Position numbers and translations under genes: made by a program. A stretch of 64,000 bases of DNA, taken from NCBI GenBank assembly GCA_949130485.1, contig OX422191.1, positions 6,325,754 to 6,389,753 of the forward strand. Direction: 5' to 3'. Source of the DNA: Agelas oroides (Eukaryota; Porifera; Demospongiae; Agelasida; Agelasidae). The notes under the pieces were generated by a model. That model searched no databases. It saw only the letters and a list, made by a program, of their open reading frames with translations, and was not told the DNA's origin. Below are positions 3,858 to 60,185 of this stretch, piece after piece (position 1 is the stretch's first letter; every line of letters begins with the position of its first letter).

Positions 3858-4619
3858 ATGGCTACAGATACATCCGGCGGGTCGAGTTTCGAGGCGCGAG
3901 TGCTGGACAGTATCTCCGCGTTGTCGTCTTCGTTTGACGCGAAGCTTGCAGAGTTTAAGGAGCAGCTGATGGAGGAGCAGAAAATGGAAAATGACCGTTT
4001 GACGAAGAAGTTGAAGCTTGAGAAGAAGTTTGAGTTTCGGAGGTAAGGGAACGAGATTCAACATGTCTTCAACGAAGGTGTAAAGGCGGTAGTAGACGAA
4101 GCGGCTGCTATTCTGGATAAACATCCCGCCACCGGCTTGGAGAGGGCGAAGGAAGCACTCAAAGAAGGTATGCATCTCATTGACGAGCGTCAGAAGCTTA
4201 TCAAGATAGCTGACCGTTCTGAGAGCGGATGGCTGACAGCACAGGAATATGAAACTGACGAGATAGCGGACGACAGTGATGACGAGAAGAGGATTGCCAG
4301 AGCGGAAAGGCAAGCAGAGAGGTTGAAAAAGAAGAGAAGTCAGTCTGTTGGGAGACGTGGTCGAGGAGGTCGGTTTTTTCGTGCCCAACCGTACAGACAG
4401 CCCGATACTGCTGCCACAGCAAGAGTTTTCGACTGGCCAGTTGCCATCCAGCGGTCCAGTTTTCAACCCGCTTCAATGGGGCCTTCAAGATCGGCAAACA
4501 CGGTCGTCTGCTTCATGTGCGGACGTGCTGGACACATTCGGAGAGAATGTCCGCTACAGCGATTGGCGGGAGGGGCTGGAGCAGCCAGTGGGGGAGGAGC
4601 TGGCCCAGCTGGAAAGTGA
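3858..4619 (+). pseudogene. Gag-like region with CCHC zinc knuckle
   Basis: The region is rich in Lys/Glu heptad-like stretches at its start, consistent with a coiled coil. It ends with a CCHC zinc knuckle (CFMCGRAGHIRREC pattern) followed by a Gly/Ala tail. It precedes and overlaps the RT frame, as expected for a nucleocapsid-type protein of an LTR-kin retroelement. It is treated here as a fossil with about one break. Confidence 0.75.
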
Positions 4620-6594
4620 TGAGATAAGTGGAGTGTGGTGGGACCCTATGTTATCTATATCTGGATATACTAATCAGATGTGCGTAACAATTAGTGCTGA
4701 AGAAGAGCCTTTAGACTTTGCAGAGGATACGGTATTTAATCAGTCGTTATTCACTAGTTTTGAGCAGGATTCAGTTATTACTTCATGTGGTATGAGTGAC
4801 ACTATCAATGAAGATGTATGTGATGCTAGTAACTCAGTGCAAGGGAATCTATTCAAGTGCTACGAATTTTGGAAAGACACATTAATAGCGCCAGAGTCTG
4901 TACTGAATATTATTTCGAATGGTTATGTACTTCCGTTCAAGGATCAGCCCCCTAGAAAAGTATTCAAAAATCATAGTAATTGTGTCAGGTATGAACAGTT
5001 TATTGATGACAGTATAAAGGACTTAGTAGCAGACAGATGTGTTAAACCTGTGCAAGAAATACCTCATGTTTGTAATCCACTATCAGTAGTTTGTAGTCGT
5101 AAAGGTAAACTTCGACTTGTATTAGATCTTCGTTATGTTAATAGATATTTATGGAAGTGTAGTTTTAAGTATGAGGATTTACGTACTGTTTTATCTATGT
5201 TCAACCGTGGAGATTGTGTCATTACTTTTGATTTGAAGTCTGGTTATCATCATGTAGATATTAACGAGGAGCACTGGAGGTATTTGGGTTTCTATTGGAA
5301 AGAGCAACACTATGTATTCAAAGTGCTACCATTTGGTCTATCTACAGCTTGTTACGCATTCACAAAACTTTTACGACCCTTAGTTCGTTATTGGCGCTCT
5401 AAAGGTATCAGAGCTGTATTGTATATTGATGACGGTATTGTTGCGTTTTCAACACTGGAACTGGAAACAGGGAATCCCATAGCTCAGGTTAGAGAGGACA
5501 TTGGTAAAGCTGGCTTGACACTTAATGTGCATAAGTCATGTTTCAGTCCATCACAGCGAGGTGTTTGGCTAGGGTTTGTGCTTGACTTTGAAAGAGGGAA
5601 GATATACATTGAAGAGGAGAAGATGGTAAACTTGATTGGCAGTATTGATGGTTTACTTGCTTCTCAACAGATGGTCCATGTTCGTACTTTAGCTAGTGTT
5701 GTGGGTCAGATCATCTCCATGTCTCGGGCTATAGGATATCTAGTTAGGTTGTTTACAAGACATTTGTATGCAACAGTGTCAAGGAGGTTTACTTGGAACT
5801 CTTATGTGTTTTTGGATGTTAGAGCAAAGGCTGAGTTAGAGTTCTGGAAAGCTAATATTCACCACTTGAATGGCCACGGTATGTGGTTTGCATCCTCAGC
5901 TGTTAGAATTGCCTATTCTGATGCCAGTGGCTTGGGTTATGGAGGGTTTGCGGTGGAGCATGCAGACAAAGTAGTACATGGGCAGTGGACGTCTGAAGAG
6001 CAGTTCAAAAGCTCCACATGGAGAGAAATAGTGGCAGTTAGAAGAGTGTTAGTGGAGATTGCACCATTGTTGTCAGGTCTGTGTGTGAAGTGGTGTTCTG
6101 ATAACCAGAATGTGGTGCATATTTTGCAATCTGGAAGTAGAAAGGGTGAATTGCAGGATGAAGCCATTGCTATTTTTAGCATTTGTGCAGAACATTCCAT
6201 CCGTTTAGAACCTGCATGGGTGCCTAGGGAGGACAATGGGTATGCAGATTACGTGAGTAAACTGGCAGATGTTGATGACTGGTACTTGAACCCTAGCGTA
6301 TTTAGGTGGCTGGATGGCATTTGGGGTCCACACACAGTGGACAGGTTTGCAAACAGTGCCAATGCACAACTGCTCAGGTTTAACTCCAGGTTTTGGTCTT
6401 GGGGCACCGAGGCAGTAGATGCCTTTACATGTGATTGGAGTAATGAGAATAACTGGATATGCCCACCTCCTCTGATGATTACAAGGATACTGAGACACAT
6501 GCAGAACTGGGTACAATGGTTGTACCAGAGTGGAAGTCTGCACCATTTTGGCCAGTGCTTTGTCCGAATGGTAGTGGTTTTGCAGAGTTTGTGA
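4348..6594 (+). CDS. reverse transcriptase / RNase H of the DIRS/Ngaro-like element
   Basis: A 748-codon open frame. The reverse transcriptase core lies at about residues 210-430 and contains the catalytic YIDDG box at about residue 358, preceded by a VLDLRYVN-type motif. An RNase H domain follows, with the YSDASGLGYGG signature at about residue 523. DIRS-order elements use this RT/RNase H pair to copy their RNA and carry no DDE integrase; none is seen here. The frame overlaps the Gag-like region and is followed by the minisatellite and the tyrosine recombinase frame. Confidence 0.9.
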   Translation: MGDVVEEVGFFVPNRTDSPILLPQQEFSTGQLPSSGPVFNPLQWGLQDRQTRSSASCADVLDTFGENVRYSDWREGLEQPVGEELAQLESDEISGVWWDPMLSISGYTNQMCVTISAEEEPLDFAEDTVFNQSLFTSFEQDSVITSCGMSDTINEDVCDASNSVQGNLFKCYEFWKDTLIAPESVLNIISNGYVLPFKDQPPRKVFKNHSNCVRYEQFIDDSIKDLVADRCVKPVQEIPHVCNPLSVVCSRKGKLRLVLDLRYVNRYLWKCSFKYEDLRTVLSMFNRGDCVITFDLKSGYHHVDINEEHWRYLGFYWKEQHYVFKVLPFGLSTACYAFTKLLRPLVRYWRSKGIRAVLYIDDGIVAFSTLELETGNPIAQVREDIGKAGLTLNVHKSCFSPSQRGVWLGFVLDFERGKIYIEEEKMVNLIGSIDGLLASQQMVHVRTLASVVGQIISMSRAIGYLVRLFTRHLYATVSRRFTWNSYVFLDVRAKAELEFWKANIHHLNGHGMWFASSAVRIAYSDASGLGYGGFAVEHADKVVHGQWTSEEQFKSSTWREIVAVRRVLVEIAPLLSGLCVKWCSDNQNVVHILQSGSRKGELQDEAIAIFSICAEHSIRLEPAWVPREDNGYADYVSKLADVDDWYLNPSVFRWLDGIWGPHTVDRFANSANAQLLRFNSRFWSWGTEAVDAFTCDWSNENNWICPPPLMITRILRHMQNWVQWLYQSGSLHHFGQCFVRMVVVLQSL

Positions 6595-6916
6595 TAGACT
6601 GCTTGACACTCCCTAACAAGCCTGATTTGTTTCTGCCTGGTGTGCAGCGTCATTCAGCCTTTGGAAGAGGAGCTCTTGCCTTTCCAGTGCTCGCCGTCAG
6701 ATTATCATTTCAGTAATTTTGTATCATGTATTGTGGTGTTGTATGCTATGTTGACTTGACTATGATTAATCTCTGTTATGATGAATGGTGCATGGTCAGC
6801 ACTTGTGGGTATATTCTACATTGCCTTGTGTCGTTGGGTTCACTACCTGTAGTTAATTTTATGAGTATGATGTATTGGTAGCAGTATATACTGTGGTGTT
6901 TGATTATTATGGTGGT

Positions 6917-7560
6917 GTGCATTCAGTGTGTATTGGTGGTGAACCCACCATGTAGATGCAGTGTGCATCAGTGTTGGTGGTGGACCCACCTTGTAGATGC
7001 AGTGTGCATCAGTATTGGTGGTGGACCCACCTTGTAGATGCAGTGTGCATTCAGTGTTGGTGGTGGACCCACCTTGTAGATGCAGTGTGCATCAGTGTTG
7101 GTGGTGGACCCACCTTGTAGATGCAGTGTGCATCAGTGTTGGTGGTGGACCCACCTTGTAGATGCAGTGTGCATCAGTATTGGTGGTGGACCCACCTTGT
7201 AGATGCAGTGTGCATTCAGTGTTGGTGGTGGACCCACCTTGTAGATGCAGTGTGCATCAGTGTTGGTGGTGGACCCACCTTGTAGATGCAGTGTGCATTC
7301 AGTGTTGGTGGTGGACCCACCTTGTAGATGCAGTGTGCATTCAGTGCTGGTGGTGGACCCACCATGTAGATGCAGTGTGCATTCAGGGTTGGTGGTGGAC
7401 CCACGGTGTAGATGCAGCGTAAATTCAGTCCTGGTGTTAGCCCCATTGTATAGTTGCAGTGTGCATTCACGACTGGTGGTAGACCCATGCACTGTGCAAA
7501 ATGCTAATATTGTCAGTATTGGTGGTGGAACCACCGTGTGGATGCAGTGTGCATTCAGGA
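6917..7560. repeat. 41-42 bp minisatellite inside the retroelement
   Basis: The unit is about 41-42 bases and centres on ggtggtggacccacc, whose arms GGTGG/CCACC can pair. About 12 good copies run to near 7430 and are followed by degenerate copies. Units alternate between gtgcatcagt and gtgcattcagt forms. Open frames crossing it are by-products of the repeat. It lies exactly between the RT/RNase H and recombinase frames. Confidence 0.9.
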
Positions 7561-7597
7561 TTTGAAGTTGTTCAGACAGTTAAAGTGGGGTTAGAAA

Positions 7598-8764
7598 TTG
7601 GATCTAGCTATATATTCAAGTGACTTGAGCCTTCAAATTGCTTTGGTAGTGCATGTAAATTATCCTGGTACTAGTTATTCAGTGCATGGGATGGTAAACC
7701 ATGCTACAGTTGTTAGTTACTATACTCAATTGCTTGTTTGCATGCAGTTTTTATTGTCTTACTTAGATGTATTGAAAGCAGGTATTTGGAAGGATATGCA
7801 GACGGTGGAGGCCCCACATTTGCAGGAGTTGGCAAAGGATTTGCCAGAAATGGTGATGTCTTCTAAAGCTACCTCCACAACAGCTAAGTATGTGAGGGCT
7901 TTCAATCGTTGGAAAAGGTGGGCCAGTCAATTTCCAGAAGTACAAGCCTTCCCTGCGTCACCATTATACATTAGTCTGTATCTAAATGAGTTGAAGAAAG
8001 AGTCAGGATCAAAAAGTTCCATTGAAACTGCAGTGTATGGTTTGAATTGGGCACATGAGATGGCAGGCCTGCACAGCCCTACGAAACATCCATTGGTGCA
8101 TGCAGCACTAGAAGGTGCTCGTAGACAGCTGGGCAAGCCTACAGTCAAGAAAGAGCCGGTCACTCCAGAGATGCTCCAGAATTTGGTTGAGAAGTTTGGT
8201 GGAAAGAATGCCTCCCTTGCTGACTTACGTGGGTTGGCTATATGCATTCTGGGGTATGCTGGATTCTTACGATATGATGAGATTGCTGGTTTGCGATTCT
8301 GTGATGTTAAGATTCTAGAGGATCATCTAGACCTGTTTATTGCATCCAGCAAGACAGACAAATTGAGGAATGGGGATTCAGTGCTCATTGCTCAGTCAGG
8401 GAACTCGACTTGTCCAGTTGGAATACTTCAGAGATATATCAGTGCTACTAAAGAGACTTCATTATCCAATAACTATTTATTTAGACCCATTAATGCAAAG
8501 AAGCAAGCCTTACGTGAAGGGAAAATGTCATATACTAGGATTAGGGAAGTTGTCATTGGATTGTTTAAGGATGTGGTTACAGATGTTTCTGTGTTTGGAG
8601 TGCATAGTCTTCGTTCAGGTGGTACCACAGCAGCTGCAAATGCAGGAGTGCCAGATCGACACTTTAAGCGTCATGGACGCTGGAGATCTGAGACTGCCAA
8701 GGATGGTTATGTTAAGGACTCATTGAGTAGTAGGTTACAGGTTTCACGTAATATTGGTTTATAA
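7598..8764 (+). CDS. tyrosine recombinase of the DIRS/Ngaro-like element
   Basis: A 388-codon frame; the conserved protein probably begins at an internal Met. It shows the tyrosine recombinase fold signatures: an Arg in GFLRYDE (about residue 224), the HSLRSGG box (His about 336, Arg about 339), HGRW (about 359) and a Tyr at about 371. In DIRS-order elements this enzyme inserts a circular DNA copy by site-specific strand exchange, which replaces the usual integrase. It is followed by repeats B1 and A2. Confidence 0.9.
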   Translation: MDLAIYSSDLSLQIALVVHVNYPGTSYSVHGMVNHATVVSYYTQLLVCMQFLLSYLDVLKAGIWKDMQTVEAPHLQELAKDLPEMVMSSKATSTTAKYVRAFNRWKRWASQFPEVQAFPASPLYISLYLNELKKESGSKSSIETAVYGLNWAHEMAGLHSPTKHPLVHAALEGARRQLGKPTVKKEPVTPEMLQNLVEKFGGKNASLADLRGLAICILGYAGFLRYDEIAGLRFCDVKILEDHLDLFIASSKTDKLRNGDSVLIAQSGNSTCPVGILQRYISATKETSLSNNYLFRPINAKKQALREGKMSYTRIREVVIGLFKDVVTDVSVFGVHSLRSGGTTAAANAGVPDRHFKRHGRWRSETAKDGYVKDSLSSRLQVSRNIGL

Positions 8765-22198: not shown

Positions 22199-24140
<1,942 letters not shown>

Positions 24141-24781: not shown

Positions 24782-25040
24782 TTGATCCACCTTCATCGTT
24801 TTAGGCTACAAGTTTTGTTGAACATAGATACCCAGAGCAGTTCTAGAAGAGCTCTCAAGCCAGCGCAGGAGCAAGAAGTCGCCGAAGATCGGAGACGGCC
24901 CAGAAACAAGAGAGACAGAGCTCGACGTGCTGCAGAGACAGCGGAACAAAGGAGCGAGAAAGCGAAGGGAGAGAAGTCGCGCTAGGCACGCTGCTCAAAA
25001 GCCATTCACACAGGGCCAAATGCATCCAAGGCTTCGCCTG
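24782..25040 (+). pseudogene. N-terminal Arg-rich remnant of a Helitron protein
   Basis: The translated stretch RDRARRAAETAEQRSEKAKG and its shifted continuation match the Arg/Glu-rich repeats (RRA-ETAEQR) often seen near the start of Helitron Rep/helicase proteins. The frame closes at 24985. The Rep nuclease domain and most of the helicase are missing between this piece and the next. Confidence 0.55.
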
Positions 25041-25461
25041 ATGATGCAACTGGACTGGACCCAGTTATTTGCATAGCACATGGTGCTCGGGTGATGCTCA
25101 CTTCCAACCTTTGGACTGGAGTTGGACTGGTCAATGGAGCCGTGGTCAAGCACCACCCAACCTGCCAGTTCCTGTTATGCTACGGTTTGATTCCTACCCA
25201 GGCCCCACCCTTCCTGACGGAACAGTTCCTATTGTCCCCATCTGCCACACCTGGCCTGTATCAAGTGCCCAGTGTTCACGATTGCAACTGCCACTAAAGC
25301 TAGCATGGGCTGTCACTATCCACAAGGCACAGGGCCTTACCCTAGACAAAGTGGTGATCGATGTTGGAAAGAAAGAGTTCGCCTGTGGACTGACATTTGT
25401 TGCCTGCTCTCGTGTTCGCACACTGACTGATCTGCTTTTCAACATTACACCACAAGTCTGA
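25010..25461 (+). pseudogene. PIF1-like helicase, C-terminal fragment
   Basis: The first part reads GLDPVICIAHGARVMLTSN followed by LWTGVGLVNGAVVK. After a frame change near 25150-25160 the next part holds VPIVPICHTW, QLPLKLAWAVTIHKAQG, LTLDKVVIDVG and LTFVACSRVRTLTDLLF. These are the last helicase motifs of PIF1-family enzymes as found in Helitrons, where the helicase unwinds donor DNA during rolling-circle transposition. Only about 150 residues of a domain usually over 400 remain, and the reading frame is broken, so it is not functional. A host PIF1 copy is less likely given the Helitron ends around it. Confidence 0.85.
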
Positions 25462-25706
25462 AACCGTTGTTGTGCAATGCTGTTGTTTCGTCTCTGGCTT
25501 AGTATCCATTCATGCATTCGTCTCAGGGCACATTCTTTGTACTAGTCTTCAAGTAGTCTTCCTTGCAGACGCTGCTTCTTTGCAAGGTTTGTTATACGCT
25601 GGAAAGGAAATGGAGGGTGTGCACTGACTATACTACCCATATGGCATCCATGTGGTATTGTACCGCTCGCTCAGGCTCGCCCCAAGATGCCTTGCATCTA
25701 CACTAG

Positions 25707-26730
25707 TATATATTATAGGACCAGTAATTGGTATGATTGCTAAAATGGCGTATAGTGGAAGCATTATGTATATTAGGGGACCACTTGAGAATCTCTGAAC
25801 AGTCAGGTTGTTTAATGGAACTGGTTGGAAGTTTGTGCAACAACAAAAGGACAAGGCTGAGCAGCCTCCTTCACTACCACTTAGTGGTCTGCTCATTAGC
25901 ACAGTTCGGTCGTACTTGTTTTGATAAGAGCAAGGTCTGGGTGCTGACTATACTCCTCTGCAGTGACTTCAGAAGTGTTGTTTTGATAAGAACGCTTCTG
26001 GTTGCACTAAACAGACTCATTCTGCCCGTGATTTCGCTGTTTTGAAGAACGCTTCGTGGTGTTCACTACTACAGGCTAGCCAGCTCTTCCGCTAAATTGG
26101 ATTCACTCGAAAATAATTAGTGCAGCTACCGTCCACATAATTGGATTAACAAAAATTGCAAAAATTGAATTTCTTCCGCTAGATTGGATCTACCGTTCTA
26201 TTTGAATAATGACGGTACCATTGAAGTTCTATCTTGTTCATTGGCTCAGTAGCAGTTTGCAAGCATGATATACCATTGAAGTTAGATATGATGAAAGCCT
26301 TGTCATTGACAGAAAGTTCATGATGTCATAAGCGGAATGACATTTTTAGGTCATTCTCAGACGTTATGGCTGAGTCTGAATCCCAACTGATAGTGAGCAG
26401 CAAATCAAACCAGTCTGGAGAAATGGACAAAGTGTATGCTAGAAAAATTGCTTACACATTGTGAAAGTTTACACCATAACTATTGCTAGGTAGTTTGTTG
26501 CAAACATGTGAAATGATTTGGTTGTCCACTACATTATTTGATGAAACCCTCAGGGATTTAAATGCTATATAGTCCCCTCAGTTTTATCGTATCTATACGT
26601 ACAACCTATATTTATTCTAAACTCCTGATCTACATATAGTGTGATCATAATACTACCTTTAAAGAAGTTAGTCCTCTGGTTATACCTTGTGAGGCATGCC
26701 ATAAAGTTGTAATCCTGTTCTTTTTCTTTG
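25707..26730. other. 5' flank of the Pmp-repeat gene
   Basis: No coding exon is recognised. Around 26090-26200 a short motif (cttccgctaaattggatt / cttccgctagattggat) is repeated. The stretch ends with a pyrimidine-rich tract and TTTGCAG (26727-26733), a good 3' splice site, so a 5' non-coding exon probably lies upstream. Confidence 0.45.
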
Positions 26731-26748
26731 CAGTTATTCCAACACGTG

Positions 26749-29700
26749 ATGGCTCTATTCATCGTTCTTGTGGCAGCACTGCTCATTAACACCCTCTCCT
26801 ACTGTTCTGCTGAGAATGTGTACTGTGTCACACCCACTGCCACCTCATGCTCATCCTGCCCTCACAATTCAACCCACTGTGCCACACTCTCTGAGTATGC
26901 ACAAGAAGCTGAATTATATTTTACCTCCAACACCACTATGGTGTTCTTGCCAGGTGACCATACTCTTGATACAAATATCACAGTTACCAATGTCGCCAGG
27001 CTGACCATGTGTGGAAGGTCTTCAGGCAACATACCAATAGTTGTTTGCAGTGGGTCAGTTGGCCTCCTCTTTACAAATATGGTGGACTTCAAAATGTACT
27101 CATTAGCTTTTAAATCTTGCAACAGGTCCTTGAGGGTTGATGACTATCTAACTGGTCTAGCTGGTAACTCTGCCTTGTTTTTGCTTTCCACACAATCTGC
27201 TGAACTAGCTAACTGCTCCTTCCATGACAATCTTTGCACTGCACTTGCAGTTTACAACACCAGTATTACTCTTGCACAGAACAACTTCACGAAGAACCAA
27301 TGTGGAATCACAGCTCTCAACAGCAATTTGATCTTCACCGGAAACACCACCTTCCTTGAAAATGGTTATTCAAGCTCAGGAATTTCAGTTGATGGTCTTG
27401 CTGGAGCAATTTGGGCACTTGCAAGTTCACTACACTTCAGTGGAACCAACAACTTCACAAGCAATGTTAATTTGGCACGGTCTGAATTTGGTGGTGGTGG
27501 AGCCATCACTGCAACAAACAACACATCATTAACTTTTACAGGAAATAGCAATTTCAACAATAACTCAGCACACAGTGGTGGTGCAATCTATGCTGCAAGC
27601 AACACAGCAGTGAGTTTCAATGGAACTAGCAGCTTTACGAACAACTCAGCAGACTCTGATGGTGGTGCAATCTATGCACGATACAGTGTTGTATTTAGCT
27701 TCAGTGGAAACAGCGACTTCATTGCCAACTCAGCACCGTCAGATTTTGGTGGTTTTGGTGGTGCAATTTATGCATCAACCGACACCTCATTGCGTTTTAC
27801 TGGAGTTAGTAACTTTAGCAACAACTTGGCAGGTTTTCAGGGCGGTGCAATCGACGCAGAAATTAACACAGTAGTAAGTTTCAGTGGAACTTGTAATTTC
27901 AATAACAACTCAGCATTTCTTGGAGGTGGGTTCTATGCAGAAACAAACACCTCAGTGAGTTTCACTGGAACTAGTTATTTCAACAATGGCATCGCAAGTG
28001 CTGCAGGTGGTGTAATTCTTGCGGAATTCAACACTTCAGTGAGTTTCAATGGAATTAGTAGTTTCAGCAATAACTCGGCAAGTACTCAAGGTGGTGCTAT
28101 CAATGCTGCATCCAGTACAGTGAGTTTCAATGGAACAAGTAGTTTTATTAACAACTCAGCATATTCTGGTGGTGCAATCTACACTTCAGACCGTGCTCTT
28201 GTTAGCTTCAGAGGAACCAGCAACTTTGACAGCAACAATGCAACTCAAGGTGGAGCCATCTCTGCAACAAACAACACATTAAGTTTCACAGGAATTAGCA
28301 ATTTTAACAACAACTATGCACGCAGTGGTGGTGCAATTTATGCTGCAAGCAACACAGCAGTGAGTTTCAATGGAACTAGCGATAGTAGCTTTACGAACAA
28401 CTCAGCAGACTCTGATGGTGGTGCGATCTATGCACGATACGGTGTTGTATTTAGCTTCAGTGGAAACAGCAACTTCATTGGCAATTCAGCACTGTCAGAT
28501 TTTGGTGGCTTTGGTGGTGCAATTTATGCATCAACCGACACATCATTGCACTTTACTGGAGTTAGTAACTTTAGCAACAACTTGGCAGGTTTTCAGGGCG
28601 GTGCAATCGACGCAGAAATTAACACAGTAGTAAGTTTCAGTGGAACTAGTAATTTCAATAACAACTCAGCATTTCTTGGAGGTGGGATCTATGCAGAAAC
28701 AAACACCTCAGTGAGTTTCACTGGAACTAGTTCTTTCAACAATGGCATCGCAAGTGCTGCAGGTGGTGTAATTCTTGCGGAATTCAACACTTCAGTGAGT
28801 TTCAATGGAATTAGTAGTTTCAGCAATAACTCGGCAAGTACTCAAGGTGGTGCTATCAATGCTGCATCCAGTACAGTGAGTTTCAATGGAACAAGTAGTT
28901 TTATTAACAACTCAGCATATTCTGGTGGTGCAATCTACACTTCAGACCGTGCTCTTGTTAGCTTCAGAGGAACCAGCAACTTTGACAGCAACAATGCAAC
29001 TCAAGGTGGAGCCATCTCTGCAACAAACAACACATTAAGTTTCACAGGAATTAGCAATTTTAACAACAACTATGCACGCAGTGGTGGTGCAATCTATGCT
29101 GCAAGCAACACAGCAGTGAGTTTCAATGGAACTAGCAGCTTTACGAACAACTCAGCAGGCTCTGATGGTGGTGCGATCTATGCACGATACGGTGTTATGT
29201 TTAGCTTCAGTGGAAACAGCAACTTCATTGGCAATTCAGCACCGTCAGATTTTGGTGGTTTTGGTGGTGCAATTTATGCATCAACCGACACATCATTGAG
29301 CTTTACTGGAGTTAGTAACTTTAGCAACAACTTGGCAGGTTTTCAGGGCGGTGCAATCGACGCAGAAATTAACACAGTAGTAAGTTTCAGTGGAACTTGT
29401 AATTTCAATAACAACTCAGCATTTCTTGGAGGTGGGATCTATGCAGAAACAAACACCTCAGTGAGTTTCACTGGAACTAGTTATTTCAACAATGGCATCG
29501 CAAGTGCTGCAGGTGGTGTAATTCTTGCGGAATTCAACACTTCAGTGAGTTTCAATGGAATTAGTAGTTTCAGCAATAACTCGGCAAGTACTCAAGGTGG
29601 TGCTATCAATGCTGCATCCAGTACAGTGAGTTTCAATGGAACAAGTAGTTTTATTAACAACTCAGCATATTCTGGTGGTGCAATCTACACTTCAGACCGT

Positions 29701-32118
29701 GCTCTTGTTAGCTTCAGAGGAACCAGCAACTTTGACAGCAACAATGCAATGAAAGGTGGAGCCATCGCAGCAATTGATACCACACTGATGATGGGAACCA
29801 GTAACTTTACAAACAATGGAAATGATACAAGCAGTAACGAAAGTACTGGAGGTGGAGTGTATTTGAGAGGTAATTCTACTTTCCAAATTTTGCCTAACAC
29901 AACCGTGTATTGGGAGAATAATCGTGCATATTTTGGAGGAGCCATCTACGTTGATGACTACACTAACCCATTCATATACTGTACTCACATTGAAAAATGC
30001 ACACAAAGAAAGTGTTTCTTTCAACTTCCCGGCCAGAATCTCTCTAATGATCTTGATGCCCAACTTGTTTTCAAGAACAACTCTGCTGATGCTGCAGGAA
30101 GTGTGTTATATGGTGGTGGAGTTGATAACTGCAAACTCACTGGCCTGGACTCATATAGCTCTGGTGAAGTTTTTGACACGTTAGTTGACATCGAAAATGA
30201 CAATACAAATTCGAGCATTTCTTCTTTTCCATTTCGCGTCTGCCAATGTGAAAACAGCCTTCCAGATTGCCAAAAATCAAAACTTAAATATACTGTGTAT
30301 CCTGGTGAAAGATTCCAAGTTTCAGTAGTTGCAGTTGGGCAGAAAGATGGAACAGTTGCTGCAGAAATTGGAAGTAGCATAGGCAGTGGTGCTACTCTTC
30401 TAAGTTCTCAATACACCCAATACGCAAATAACACCTGCACCACACTCGACTATACTGTGTTCTCACTGTCTAATTCTGATCGTCCCGTGGTACTAGAATT
30501 GTATGCAAATATCCCATGTTCAACATTTAGTTATACACTAAATGTTAGTTTGACTATAAATCAGACCTGCCCACCTGGATTTAACATCTCTGAGTCAAAG
30601 AGAGCTTGTGTCTGTGAGGAAAGACTTGAACAGTACACTAACAAATGCAATATAACAAGTGAAGAAATAACACGTGAATTGTTCCAGCAGTTTTGGATTG
30701 GGTATGATGATCAATCTCGTGGACTAATTCTTAACCCACTCTGCCCATTAGACTATTGTGTCTCTCAAACAGTGGTCTTTCGTCTCAACAATACAGACAT
30801 CCAGTGTGCAAACAACAGGTCAGGACTCTTGTGTGGAGCTTGCAAGACAGGTCATAGTCTGGTACTAGGCACTTCTCGATGCAAGCAGTGCACCAACAGC
30901 TATCTTGCTTTACTCGTTCCTTTTGCAGTGATGGGAGTAGCATTGGTCTTCTTCCTCCTTGTCTGCAAATTGACAGTGGCCACAGGAACACTCAGTGGCT
31001 TAGTGTTCTATGCCAACATTGTTGGAGTGAATCGTACCATCTTTCTACCAGTTGAATCTACTGATGCTTTATCAGTCTTCATTGCCTGGCTAAACCTTGA
31101 CTTTGGTATCGAAACTTGTTTCTTTGATGGAATGGATGCTTATAGTAAAACATGGCTGCAGTTTGCATTCCCAGCATATCTTTGGCTGCTGGTAGGACTC
31201 ATGATTGTCATTAGCCATTTTTCAAACAGATTCGCAAATCTGCTAGGTAAGAACCCAGTTTCTGTCTTGGCAACACTTGTTCTCCTCTCATATGCCAAGA
31301 TCCTCCGCACATTAATTTCTGCAATTTATGTCACCTACCTTGAATACCCAACATACAACAGAATGGTGTGGCTGTATGATGCAAACATTGACTACCTTGT
31401 TGGTAAGCACATTCCACTCTTTATAGTGGCAGTGGTTGTCTTTGTCTTCCTCTTTCTTCCTTACACTCTCTTGCTTCTCTTTGGGCAGTGGTTGCAGGCC
31501 ATATCCCACTTGAGGCTCTTCTCATGGGTTAACAGTGCCAAGTTACATGCTTTCATGGACTCATATCATGCTCCCTACAAAGCAAAACATCGCTACTGGC
31601 CTGGACTGCTGCTTGTACTTCGCTTCATCCTTCTTGTAGTCTTTGCCTTCAATCCTCAGCAAAACCCCAGCATTACCTTGCTGGCAATTCTAGTTGGAGC
31701 TGGCCTGCTTCACATGTGGGCTTGGTTTAGCGGTGGGGTCTACAGAAACTGGTGTCTAGATGCCCTGGAAGGTTCATTTATGGTGAACATGACTATCTTA
31801 GCTGCTGCCACATACCATGTCAAATACTCAGAAGGGAATCAGTATGCTGTTTGGTACACCTCTGTCTCCATAGCATTCATAACATTTCTTGGAATCCTCG
31901 CCTATCACATCTTCCAGCAAGTGAAAGACACAAAGCTCTGTAAGAAGGTTCCTAATCTAAATCTCAATGGAGAGCACTTCAACGATTTAAAAGATATGAA
32001 CGATTCTGAGAGTCCTATTAACAATTCCATGGTGACAGTCACGGAAATTGCAAACTTTGAAGAACTTCGTGAACCTCTGCTTGAGGACGAGCCTCAGCCT
32101 CATCATCATACTGTCTGA
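26749..32118 (+). CDS. Pmp-repeat multi-pass surface protein, receptor-like
   Basis: A single open frame of 1789 residues. The start chosen is the ATG at 26749, 15 bases after a splice acceptor; it opens a signal peptide (MALFIVLVAALL..., about residues 1-21). Residues from about 40 to 1040 are tandem Pmp-type repeats: more than 20 GGAI (or GGVI/GGGI) motifs, each followed by F-x-G-x-S-x-F and N-rich turns, which in chlamydial Pmp proteins form a beta-helix. Within it, three near-identical modules of 250-252 residues start at about 285, 535 and 787. A Cys-rich part follows (about 1275-1380, ending in GLLCGACKTGHSLVLGTSRC), then 8-10 membrane helices (about 1385-1722) and a 67-residue acidic tail. 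It is rich in N-x-S/T sites. Probable role: cell-surface adhesin or receptor; the ligand is unknown. No intron interrupts 5.4 kb. Confidence 0.93.
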   Translation: MALFIVLVAALLINTLSYCSAENVYCVTPTATSCSSCPHNSTHCATLSEYAQEAELYFTSNTTMVFLPGDHTLDTNITVTNVARLTMCGRSSGNIPIVVCSGSVGLLFTNMVDFKMYSLAFKSCNRSLRVDDYLTGLAGNSALFLLSTQSAELANCSFHDNLCTALAVYNTSITLAQNNFTKNQCGITALNSNLIFTGNTTFLENGYSSSGISVDGLAGAIWALASSLHFSGTNNFTSNVNLARSEFGGGGAITATNNTSLTFTGNSNFNNNSAHSGGAIYAASNTAVSFNGTSSFTNNSADSDGGAIYARYSVVFSFSGNSDFIANSAPSDFGGFGGAIYASTDTSLRFTGVSNFSNNLAGFQGGAIDAEINTVVSFSGTCNFNNNSAFLGGGFYAETNTSVSFTGTSYFNNGIASAAGGVILAEFNTSVSFNGISSFSNNSASTQGGAINAASSTVSFNGTSSFINNSAYSGGAIYTSDRALVSFRGTSNFDSNNATQGGAISATNNTLSFTGISNFNNNYARSGGAIYAASNTAVSFNGTSDSSFTNNSADSDGGAIYARYGVVFSFSGNSNFIGNSALSDFGGFGGAIYASTDTSLHFTGVSNFSNNLAGFQGGAIDAEINTVVSFSGTSNFNNNSAFLGGGIYAETNTSVSFTGTSSFNNGIASAAGGVILAEFNTSVSFNGISSFSNNSASTQGGAINAASSTVSFNGTSSFINNSAYSGGAIYTSDRALVSFRGTSNFDSNNATQGGAISATNNTLSFTGISNFNNNYARSGGAIYAASNTAVSFNGTSSFTNNSAGSDGGAIYARYGVMFSFSGNSNFIGNSAPSDFGGFGGAIYASTDTSLSFTGVSNFSNNLAGFQGGAIDAEINTVVSFSGTCNFNNNSAFLGGGIYAETNTSVSFTGTSYFNNGIASAAGGVILAEFNTSVSFNGISSFSNNSASTQGGAINAASSTVSFNGTSSFINNSAYSGGAIYTSDRALVSFRGTSNFDSNNAMKGGAIAAIDTTLMMGTSNFTNNGNDTSSNESTGGGVYLRGNSTFQILPNTTVYWENNRAYFGGAIYVDDYTNPFIYCTHIEKCTQRKCFFQLPGQNLSNDLDAQLVFKNNSADAAGSVLYGGGVDNCKLTGLDSYSSGEVFDTLVDIENDNTNSSISSFPFRVCQCENSLPDCQKSKLKYTVYPGERFQVSVVAVGQKDGTVAAEIGSSIGSGATLLSSQYTQYANNTCTTLDYTVFSLSNSDRPVVLELYANIPCSTFSYTLNVSLTINQTCPPGFNISESKRACVCEERLEQYTNKCNITSEEITRELFQQFWIGYDDQSRGLILNPLCPLDYCVSQTVVFRLNNTDIQCANNRSGLLCGACKTGHSLVLGTSRCKQCTNSYLALLVPFAVMGVALVFFLLVCKLTVATGTLSGLVFYANIVGVNRTIFLPVESTDALSVFIAWLNLDFGIETCFFDGMDAYSKTWLQFAFPAYLWLLVGLMIVISHFSNRFANLLGKNPVSVLATLVLLSYAKILRTLISAIYVTYLEYPTYNRMVWLYDANIDYLVGKHIPLFIVAVVVFVFLFLPYTLLLLFGQWLQAISHLRLFSWVNSAKLHAFMDSYHAPYKAKHRYWPGLLLVLRFILLVVFAFNPQQNPSITLLAILVGAGLLHMWAWFSGGVYRNWCLDALEGSFMVNMTILAAATYHVKYSEGNQYAVWYTSVSIAFITFLGILAYHIFQQVKDTKLCKKVPNLNLNGEHFNDLKDMNDSESPINNSMVTVTEIANFEELREPLLEDEPQPHHHTV
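27601..29756 (+). repeat. three near-identical 750-bp coding repeats
   Basis: Module starts are at 27601, 28351 and 29107. The spacing is 750 and 756 bp; the second unit has an extra 6 bp near 28380. Differences between modules are few by eye, including at the nucleotide level. The third ends at about 29756, where the text changes from NNATQGGA to NNAMKGGA. The frame is kept throughout. Recent unequal crossing-over or gene conversion is inferred. Confidence 0.93.
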
Positions 32119-36850: not shown

Positions 36851-37513
36851 CTCTTCAGTCTTCACCCTACCATGATGACTGGGAGCACTTCAGTCTTCAC
36901 CCGACCATGAGGACTGGGAGCACTTCAGTCTTCACCCGACCATGATGACTGGGAGCACTTCAGTCTTCACCCAACCATGATGACTGGGAGCACTTCAGTC
37001 TTCACCCAACCATGAGGACTGGGTGCTCTTCAGTCTTCACCCGACCATGATGACTGGGAGCACTTCAGTCTTCACCCGACCATGATGACTGGGAGCACTT
37101 CAGTCTTCACCCGACCATGATGACTGGGAGCACTTCAGTCTTCACCCGACCATGATGACTGGGAGCACTTCAGTCTTCACCCGACCATGATGACTGGGAG
37201 CACTTCAGTCTTCACCCGACCATGATGACTGGGAGCACTTCAGTCTTCACCCGACCATGATGACTGGGAGCACTTCAGTCTTCACCCGACCATGATGACT
37301 GGGAGCACTTCAGTCTTCACCCGACCATGATGACTGGGAGCACTTCAGTCTTCACCCGACCATGATGACTGGGAGCACTTCAGTCTTCACCCGACCATGA
37401 GGACTGGGAGCACTTCAGTCTTCACCCGACCATGAGGACTGGGAGCACTTCAGTCTTCACCCGACCATGAGGACTGGGAGCACTTCAGTCTTCACCCGAC
37501 CATGAGGACTGGG
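36851..37513. repeat. 35-bp minisatellite, about 19 copies
   Basis: The unit is cttcagtcttcacccgacca followed by tgatgactgggagca. Copies differ at a few sites: atgatgact versus atgaggact, cccgacc versus cccaacc or ccctacc, and gggagca versus gggtgct. The central block of copies (about 37050-37390) is uniform; variant copies lie at the ends, a sign of recent homogenisation. CAGTC and GACTG within the unit can pair. Confidence 0.95.
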
Positions 37514-57710: not shown

Positions 57711-58329
57711 GTAATGTTATTCCAACAGCTTATTGTAACTAGTATGCTAAAGCGTTTGATGAAATATTTTTGTTGATAAAGAATACTTGCAGATACTATG
57801 GAAACACAAAGTATGTATCATGTTTTGTCATTGGAAACCTTTATAGTTACAAGATGTTTCCAATTTCAAGAAACTCAACCTTTCTTTCAAAGGAAATCCC
57901 CCCAAAAATCAATTGTAAACACTATGATTATTACACAGTGGAAACCTAACAGGAAACACAGTGATTCTGCAAAGTAAACTTGGAAGGAAACTTACAAACA
58001 GGTTTCCTCACAGGTTTACAAACTGAAACTTTCTTGGAAACTTCAATTTTGTCATAGTGTTTCTAACTTAAACTTTCTAATAATATAGAAATGTTATGTA
58101 ACTAACAGTGTCAATAGTAATTCCTTGCACTATAATTTTACACAGTTTTAGAGTATGTATGTCACTGTCCAATTAGTGTCAACAAGCCAACCAAAAAGCA
58201 CTACAGAACAGATGCATGTAATTTCCAATCAAAAAAGCTCTCCATTGTCACCAAACATTCCTTGTGAGATGGTATATACGGTTTTGGAGCAACCTTACAC
58301 AAATATTTTTGTTCTGTCTATACATGTAG
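57711..58329. other. intronic sequence before Ig exon E
   Basis: A loose repeat of ggaaacc/ggaaac motifs occurs at about 57830-58050 (aggaaacacag, ggaaacttacaaacaggtttcc). There is no coding exon and no clear mobile element. Confidence 0.5.
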
Positions 58330-58623
58330 CTGACCCTCCGAGAGTTACCATTCATCCACAAGACATAAGAAACATTGCTCACGGGAAGTCTGTGAAGCTT
58401 TCCATCCAATCTACTGGAACAGGACCTCTGCACTACAAATGGGAATGGATCCCAACTGGGGAGGAAGGTGGGGCTAAACAGTGGCAGCCATGTCATGCAA
58501 AGTTGGGCAAAGGTCCTACACTGACCATCTCCAAGGTGGATGAATCAAATGAAGGAAGCTACCGCTGTGTTGTCAACAATGATGCTGGTAGTGATGTCTC
58601 TAATCCGGCTACACTCACTATAT
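58330..58623 (+). CDS. Ig-repeat gene, Ig exon E
   Basis: A 294-bp exon, phase 1 at both ends: acceptor catgtag|ct, donor atat|gtaaga. It encodes an Ig domain that starts DPPRVTIHPQDIRNIAHGKS and ends GSYRCVVNNDAGSDVSNPA. The core Trp (KWEWIP) and F-strand Cys are present; the B-strand position has Ile (KLSIQS) and the added Cys is in KQWQPCHAK. Splicing from exon D (phase 1, t|) gives a Ser at the join. The intron to exon F is only 88 bp. Confidence 0.88.
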
Positions 58624-58711
58624 GTAAGAGTCCAAAATCTGTCATATAGTTATAGTATGAACTTTGTGTTACATCTACTTCATCTCTTTGCTTCTGCATA
58701 TGTACATGTAG

Positions 58712-59005
58712 CCAAGCCTCCCAGAATCATCACTCATCCACAAAAATTGAAAGATGTCATTCCTGGGAAATCTGCTAAGTTTACAGTCCACGCCACAGGC
58801 ACAGACCCTCTGAACTATAACTGGCAGTGGAAGCGAGATGATAAGGGAAGTGGGAGTAAGCAATGGCAGCCGTGTGACGAAGGTTGGTCTGATGGCACTA
58901 CCCTCACCATCCCCAGTGTGCAGAAGGCCAATGAAGGGAGCTACCGGTGTGTTATCAGCAACCATGATGGTAACCAGACTTCCAAACCAGCTCAACTAAC
59001 TGTTG
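58712..59005 (+). CDS. Ig-repeat gene, Ig exon F
   Basis: A 294-bp exon, phase 1 at both ends: acceptor catgtag|cc, donor gttg|gtaagt. It encodes an Ig domain beginning KPPRIITHPQKLKDVIPGKS and ending GSYRCVISNHDGNQTSKPA. B-strand FTVHA lacks Cys, core Trp is in NWQWKR, added Cys is in KQWQPCDEG, and the F-strand is YRC. Later exons are not found in the window. Reading through the donor gives TVGK and a stop, so a short end at this point is also possible. Confidence 0.88.
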
Positions 59006-60185
59006 GTAAGTAGCCACTACACAAATTCTACAGCTACAGTATCTATGTGTAGCTATCAAGAAAGGCTAAGCAAGCCAATGAAACAGCACTAGCATGATAC
59101 TAGTGTGTACATCATTGGCTCGTTCAGATTGATAACCATATACACATATCAGTAGTCACAAGAGCTTTCTATGTGTGAGCTAGTGGAGTCTGGGACAGGG
59201 TTCTGTCAGAAAATATTGATGGGGTCATAGGCATCGGAAGCAGGGGGGGCCGGGGGAGGGGGGGCATGTGCCCCCCCAAACCTTGAGGCTGGGGGGGCAC
59301 GCGCATTTATGAGTGAGCCAGAGAACGCTTGACATTTGGCTACCTGCAGCCAAGAAAAAGAAAACAGCAAGTGACAGGAGGTAAAAAGTGCATGCCTTGT
59401 AACGTGACCAGGTTATGAATAGAAGAAGTGGGTTAGTTTCCTGTAATCGTGTGGCCATTCTGACCTTTTCAAGTACGGCACACTCTCTGAACTACTGTGC
59501 TTTGCGCGGGAGGGGGAAAACCCCCTTCCCTTACGGCTGCAAAGCGGCTGCCATGCTACAACTGTACCCCCACCCCCCCCCAAATTCGAAGTGTTTCCGG
59601 TGCTTATGGGGGTTGATGAGACCATGCAACATCTATGATGTCTTAAACTCCTGTGAGAGACGTTAGTCTGTTTTACCCTCATTTGTAGTTGCAGCTATTT
59701 TGCCAGCTTTCCTTCACCCGCTCTTAGCCTCTCACTCACAGTCATTCTTCACTCACTGTCACTCGTAGTTGTACTTCCCCTGCTGTCTGTGAAGCACCAC
59801 CGATTTACTGTTTGTCTGAACTGCTCCTCTCACTCTGCACCATTAATGTGGTAGCATATGGTGACTGCTGATGCCGAAACACAATGTCATCATGATCTCG
59901 CCACATGGTTGCCAATATTCTTATTAGACTGAGTGCATGAGTTTGGTTTGAGAATAAACAGGTAGTTTTTGCAAAATATTATAGTATTGCTTATAGTAGT
60001 TGTCGTGAAGATGCCAGTTGTAGGTAATTATAATTAGTACATATTATTGATCGCACCTGACCATCATTGACCACCATGGGCAAAACCCTGTTAAGAGTGG
60101 TTAAGGCATACCCCAAGTCTGATTCTAGCTCAATTTTTGCTTTAGCCTTTGTATTTTGAGCAAGTACTGAAGGAAAAGTACATGA
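59006..60185. other. spacer with a G-rich MITE; no gene
   Basis: A possible MITE spans 59226-59607: CATAGGCATCGGAA at the left and TTCCGGTGCTTATG at the right, with ggggggcatgtgcccccc inside. Open frames here are accidental. I found no further Ig exon with phase-1 sites in this stretch. Confidence 0.5.

Follow-up and report, generated by a model that had tools for sequence, protein, structure and literature searches.

A predicted sponge protein joining a Pmp-type beta-helix to a multi-pass membrane domain, and its expanded gene family in Agelas oroides

Background

The repeats of chlamydial Pmp proteins carry the motifs FxxN and GGA[IVL] in predicted rungs of at least 27 residues, with FxxN on one turn and GGA[IVL] on a later turn (PMC10715098). 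In Trichomonas vaginalis, 48 Pmp-like proteins have been described, in which a Pmp ectodomain is combined with a transmembrane domain near the C-terminus and a cytoplasmic tail. Their expression increases adhesion, they reside mainly in internal compartments, their transmembrane domain is marked by a conserved ATPITK motif, and their tails contain motifs of the NPx[YF] type (PMC6701047). These trichomonad Pmps are the nearest published precedent found. Large recognition gene families of unrelated kinds are known from sponges: Amphimedon has 296 SRCR genes (PMC10855680), and the NLRs of Dysidea avara number 126 (PMC12909245).

The window, a 64,000-nucleotide stretch of the genome of the sponge Agelas oroides, contains a gene whose predicted product resembles chlamydial Pmps in its paired F..N and GGxI motifs, in their spacing of about 28 residues and in a predicted beta-helix. 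Unlike the chlamydial Pmp autotransporters, this window protein showed neither the Pmp middle domain nor the beta-barrel among the three Pfam families matched at E values up to 0.1; it ends in hydrophobic helices and is encoded by an animal gene from a family apparently numbering in the hundreds. With the trichomonad Pmps, as described, it shares its occurrence in a eukaryote, a Pmp ectodomain, a C-terminal membrane part with a tail, and membership of an expanded family. In contrast to them, the window protein has no ATPITK motif and NPx[YF] is absent from the 37 sponge-family tails scored; the sponge family is further distinguished by its Cys-rich collar, its LRExLL tail motif and a membrane domain of about nine helices. 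The SRCR and NLR expansions are similar in copy number but consist of unrelated domains, and a recognition role for the present family is one that we infer.

Names such as 'outer membrane protein pmp' are attached to certain sponge gene models in public databases, which makes it probable that individual members of the family have been sequenced before. In the papers searched, no publication was found that links Pmp or pectin-lyase proteins with sponges, and among the papers listed for Chlam_PMP, PF02415 and related searches no description of the family was found by title or start of abstract, subscription papers being poorly covered in both cases. The phrase 'outer membrane' is absent from the main text of PMC12909245, and the main text of a sponge transcriptome paper (PMC11229196) contains none of the terms 'outer membrane protein', 'polymorphic' and 'adhesin'.

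Results and discussion

Coding frame and gene structure

An initial annotation had proposed that a signal peptide, about 1000 residues of Pmp repeats, a Cys-rich part and a membrane domain of 8-10 helices are encoded in one uninterrupted 5.4-kb frame, and this anatomy was largely borne out (Table 1). The frame is open from ATG to stop, a hydrophobic signal-like segment covers residues 1-19 by hydropathy alone, 13 cysteines lie between residues 1230 and 1381, and hydropathy averaged over nine family members has about nine peaks within residues 1388-1718. The repeats are present, at an array length nearer 880 residues than 1000. A separate gene for the membrane part was rejected, because the frame is common to dozens of paralogs.

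Table 1. Predicted features of the window gene (positions in the window)
Feature	Position	Strand	Basis
Probable 3' splice site (pyrimidine tract plus cag) of a 5' untranslated intron	26718..26733	+	Read in sequence
Single-frame coding sequence, 1789 aa plus stop	26749..32118	+	ATG at 26749, stop at 32118, uninterrupted
Signal peptide, about residues 1-21	26749..26811	+	Hydropathy; putative cleavage site placed by eye
N-terminal extracellular region with Cys, 'CxTLxEYA...FLPGxHxL' type	26812..27468	+	By eye
Pmp-type beta-helix array, 31 GGxI motifs, about 28 aa per rung	27469..30138	+	Profiles, motif count, AlphaFold2
Block of 750-756 nt (about 250 aa), three near-identical copies inside the array	27627..29432	+	Repeat comparison
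Cys-rich juxtamembrane part (collar); sub-threshold DUF7630 in second half	30439..30891	+	Hydropathy/composition, profile search
Multi-pass membrane domain, about 9 helices	30892..31929	+	Hydropathy
Short, probably cytosolic tail	31930..32115	+	Predicted topology
Conserved tail motif EELREPLL, residues 1771-1778	32059..32082	+	Family motif LRE[PS][LMW]L

The probable splice acceptor ends 15 nt upstream of the ATG of the window gene. A comparable acceptor was seen just 5' of the ATG in six of the nine genes displayed (L001, L003, L006, L039, L040 and L041) and was not clear in the remaining three (L002, L005 and L042). These upstream acceptors suggest a 5' untranslated exon in the family genes, which counts against an origin of the genes as processed retrocopies. 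The N-terminal region of the window protein is similar, by eye, in divergent family members, and 58 of the 62 N-glycosylation sequons are found before residue 1395, that is, N-terminal to the membrane domain.

The Pmp-type array

Both profile searches and motif counts placed the extracellular part among Pmp-type repeats. The Pmp-repeat profile search proposed with the initial annotation gave strong matches to the window protein for PF02415 of Pfam (E=1e-36, 121.3 bits, curated cut-off 20.6) and for TIGR01376 of NCBIfam (E=1.5e-57, 188.8 bits, cut-off 15). All 31 motifs of the form GG[AGV][IVFL] lie within residues 250-1125, with a median spacing of 28, whereas in 1000 shuffles of residues 241-1130 such motifs averaged 0.95 and did not exceed 6. 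An F..N motif stands 8-14 residues N-terminal to GGxI in 27 of the 31 cases.

AlphaFold2 modeled residues 241-545 (305 aa) as a beta-solenoid with a pLDDT of 87.9, the alignment supplied for this stretch being the two other copies of the internal block. AlphaFold2 is prone to confident but unreal beta-solenoids on repeat sequences (PMC11795689), and the motif match is therefore stronger evidence for a beta-helix than the model is. The matched stretches of the three block copies begin at 27627, 28383 and 29133, at spacings of 756 and 750 nt; in two of the three reported repeat families the copies have 96-97% identity over 300-nt stretches, while the values of 70% and 92% in the third come from an ungapped comparison that spans the 6-nt length difference.

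PF02415 also exceeded its cut-off in all six further full family proteins that were scanned, including L043 and L045, which have just 2 and 4 GGxI motifs, respectively. Judging from these encoded proteins, the family ectodomain is of a more general kind, and the canonical Pmp array is just one form that it takes. When the 259-Mb assembly was searched with PF02415, a profile of 19 positions, the one match was the window gene itself (E 8.4e-4); the profile is short and also matches the E. coli control, so that this search is uninformative on the number of Pmp genes. The repeat array of L039 exceeds the cut-off of DUF6447 (33 versus 27 bits), probably as a chance match to repeats.

Collar, membrane domain and tail

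The collar is weakly matched by DUF7630 (PF24633) in eight of nine members (best E 8.7e-4) and in five of six members of another set (best E 1.9e-4); in the window protein the match reaches 19.1 bits against a curated cut-off of 27, and it is uninformative about the helices. Charged or polar residues invariant across the nine members include R351, E400, K243 and D270 in the numbering of alignment A2.

None of the Pfam families listed at E values up to 5 for the nine members matches the membrane helices. Sequence and profile searches of the PDB gave 0, 5 and 6 matches, the last of these at E values up to 10, and none was credible (best E 0.15). Neither a 7-helix receptor nor a GPCR proteolysis domain was among the Pfam families listed for the nine members, where matches above E 0.1 were mostly filtered, and the count of about nine hydropathy peaks, compared by sequence without a fold, differs from the seven of GPCRs. 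Likewise, no TRP-like or polycystin profile matched the helical domain in the Pfam listing or among the six PDB matches (E up to 10), again by sequence only. Searches of IMG/VR with the membrane domain as a single sequence and as an alignment gave no pattern match and then 36 and 29, none of which was confirmed, and neither was any of the 42 and 55 pattern matches in GTDB genomes; no relative of the domain was found with these peptide patterns in 84,980 prokaryote genomes. A single-sequence AlphaFold2 model of residues 1064-1789 was unusable (pLDDT 39.6).

An odd number of helices would place the tail inside the cell. The motif LRE[PS][LMW]L is found near the C-terminus in 32 of 37 tails, which otherwise differ, and in all five divergent members with a readable tail; variants of the motif occur in L002, L011, L021 and L037. 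The first scoring covered 32 tails, 29 of which had the motif, and left out, from 48 loci, six duplicates, L039-L042 (the same genes as others) and the interrupted L047; the five tails missed by the anchor pattern (L007, L017, L021, L030 and L035) were added later to reach 37. A canonical dileucine uptake signal was rejected as an explanation of the motif, since [DE]xxxL[LI] occurs in the last 60 residues of just 3 of the 37 tails. Of other uptake patterns, Yxx-phi was found in the last 60 residues of 10 of the 37 tails and NPx[YF] in none. That the membrane domain and the tail motif are the conserved parts of the family goes beyond what had been annotated. L007 lacks the LRExLL motif and ends in a long acidic tail, perhaps with a different output.

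Family size and genomic arrangement

The assembly that was searched comprises 259 Mb in 141 contigs, with the window on contig C9. To our knowledge, Wnt genes are confined to animals. Wnt-family exons were found in the same assembly at three strong loci (C8, C10 and C22) and at one further weak locus on C2, one of the C10 pieces containing an internal stop, and the same search was negative in all 14 control genomes. These exons mark the assembly as an animal genome, in agreement with the annotation of the gene as animal-type.

The search with the membrane domain scored 82 places, including that of the window, from 1209 first-look candidates, all with at least 66% identity. No stop lies inside the match in 79 of them, and three have one. 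Open frames of at least 1000 aa contain 69 of the 82 places, and the remaining 13 are in shorter open frames, which means that the family includes split or broken copies. Even the lowest-scoring of the 82 reached 768 bits, which indicates that the true copy number is larger. Two degenerate motifs of the membrane domain had 269 and 266 exact matches in the genome, and the reversed patterns had none. On contig C1 the motifs matched 42 and 45 times, with 34 matches in common and a union of 53, from which capture-recapture scaling estimates about 317-329 places in the whole genome, a figure that counts broken copies as well. These counts suggest roughly 300 similar gene copies in the Agelas oroides genome. 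The annotation of the locus as a single fusion gene was accordingly right in its anatomy and incomplete in its scope, the gene being one of about 300 copies.

Many of the predicted family copies are in tandem arrays: 23 of the 52 gaps between neighbors on C1 measure 4.6-9.6 kb. Other copies are scattered across many contigs. Identity was 86% between genes within 150 kb and 81% otherwise, a difference reached in 0 of 2000 permutations of the 32 genes compared.

Six divergent places were chosen by hand among 100 listed motif places. The membrane domains of five of them (L047 was not aligned) have 44-53% identity to that of the window gene, and L043, L045 and L048 are single long frames with a signal-like segment, the N-terminal region, beta-helix, collar, helices and tail. 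Of the other three, L044 was covered in part, L046 is spread across three frames, and L047 has a stop within its membrane domain; the family thus probably includes pseudogenes or intron-bearing members.

Variation and constraint

Substitution rates were calculated for 32 genes, namely L001-L038 without the duplicates L009, L016, L019, L020, L025 and L033; these are the best-scoring matches and represent a near subfamily rather than the whole family. With 465 pairs for the region just before the collar and 496 pairs for each other part, the median dN, dS and ratio were 0.105, 0.445 and 0.235 for the membrane domain, 0.267, 0.614 and 0.436 for the collar, 0.297, 0.700 and 0.424 for the region just before the collar, and 0.327, 0.863 and 0.379 for the tail. 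By these values the predicted membrane domain is the most constrained part, and amino-acid change, measured against synonymous change, is tolerated almost twice as well in the neighboring extracellular parts. Gene conversion would likewise be compatible with the lower dS of the membrane domain. Positive selection is not shown by these ratios, since the extramembrane parts, too, have values below 1.

Among very close paralogs (L039/L040, L039/L041, L040/L041 and L005/L042), all 11 gaps of at least 3 residues fall inside the beta-helix, and each is 26-29 residues long or close to a multiple of that length (53, 55, 135, 139 and 192). The placement of individual gaps depends on the aligner; the net length differences of the four pairs (274, 324, 50 and 30 residues), calculated from the protein lengths, do not. 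In this comparison, length varies between the close copies in steps of whole predicted rungs. In five of six close pairs, which are not independent of one another, pN/pS was lower in the membrane domain than in the helix, with L005/L042 as the exception (membrane 0.66, helix 0.34). L039 and L040 are about 99% identical where aligned, with 15 nonsynonymous changes and 1 synonymous change in the ectodomain, differences that are too few for a claim of positive selection.

Proposed function and alternative explanations

We propose, with a probability of about 0.5, that the window gene belongs to an expanded family of multi-pass receptors that are variable outside and constant in the membrane and that probably recognize microbes or self. 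The pattern of a variable outside and a constant membrane domain makes recognition more plausible, and it is the likeliest function that we infer, with a common output through membrane domain and tail; uptake, adhesion or signaling may be that output. The protein would sit at the cell surface and bind through its beta-helix; the common output, in the form of uptake, signaling or both, would run through the constant membrane domain and the tail; the family would recognize microbes or self; and tandem duplication together with the gain and loss of rungs would renew the repertoire.

Among other explanations, a purely structural role in adhesion is unlikely, though it deserves the most serious attention: the beta-helices would act as stalks by which cells attach to one another or to the matrix, and copy number would reflect amount and tissue-specific use rather than recognition. 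The literature on chlamydial Pmps, which are surface proteins in host-microbe interactions (PMC10715098), and on the adhesion raised by trichomonad Pmps (PMC6701047) is in line with such stalks, as is the concentration of sequons N-terminal to the membrane domain. However, one helix would suffice for an anchor, and the strongest conservation of any part is found in the domain of about nine helices, suggesting that this domain has a separate function. A role in feeding or clearance, in which food bacteria are captured and internalized in bulk and without discrimination and the tail serves as uptake signal, appears distinctly improbable. The tail motif is conserved, and C-terminal endocytic motifs are reported for many trichomonad Pmps (PMC6701047), but LRExLL fits none of the canonical uptake patterns tested, as the tail counts given above indicate, and so many diverged copies would not obviously be required for bulk uptake. 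We give little credence to the membrane domain being a channel or transporter that is gated or positioned by the ectodomain; the invariance of charged and polar residues across nine members, in a domain of roughly nine helices, would be compatible with this, whereas no Pfam or PDB channel or transporter family was matched, a weak argument since the comparison was made by sequence without a fold.

The name of the Pmp repeats, which comes from Chlamydia, raises the question of bacterial contamination or of a recently acquired chlamydial autotransporter gene. Against this stand the hydrophobic multi-helix end in place of an autotransporter or Pmp-middle domain, the hundreds of motif matches over many long contigs, the probable splice acceptor, a GC content equal to that of the surroundings, and a membrane domain for which the peptide patterns found no relative in the prokaryote genomes searched; the chance of a bacterial origin is negligible, and contamination or a chlamydial autotransporter is in our view excluded for the window gene. 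Multiplication as a selfish or mobile element, rather than by selection for a repertoire, might be suspected from the scattering of copies over many contigs in addition to arrays, yet there is no mobility domain in the frame, the genes are under purifying selection, and 79 of the 82 places have no stop in the match. It was rejected on these grounds and has a vanishingly small probability.

Within the preferred reading of a recognition receptor family, a wider proposal is more tentative and falls somewhat short of even odds: the copies would form an undescribed animal superfamily of about 300 genes, in which beta-helix rungs, gained and lost in the manner of cassettes, provide a germline, lineage-specific recognition repertoire that is coupled through the membrane domain to the LRExLL tail and is about as large as the SRCR and NLR expansions. 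If this is true, a class of receptors has been visible to domain libraries only as 'Chlamydia Pmp repeat' and is easily dismissed as contamination, hundreds of candidate receptors would become available to research on early-animal immunity and self-recognition, and a route of diversification, the gain and loss of whole rungs, could be seen directly. The membrane domain, for which no named relative was found, would be a structure worth solving.

Other features of the window

Positions 4137-8764 contain in a row a zinc-knuckle, a reverse transcriptase (6.2e-16) and a tyrosine-recombinase-like match below the cut-off (9.1e-4), an arrangement that suggests a DIRS- or Ngaro-like retroelement. At 25000-25480 a sequence resembling, by eye, the 3' end of a Pif1 helicase is perhaps the remnant of a Helitron. 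Two overlapping frames with immunoglobulin domains (Ig_3 and I-set) at 58155-59013 are probably exons of a neighboring gene. Simple repeats include a 35-bp satellite of 18.9 copies with 98% match at 36853-37513, a further tandem array with a unit of 41-42 bp at 6915-7558, and a GT run at 23937-24139.
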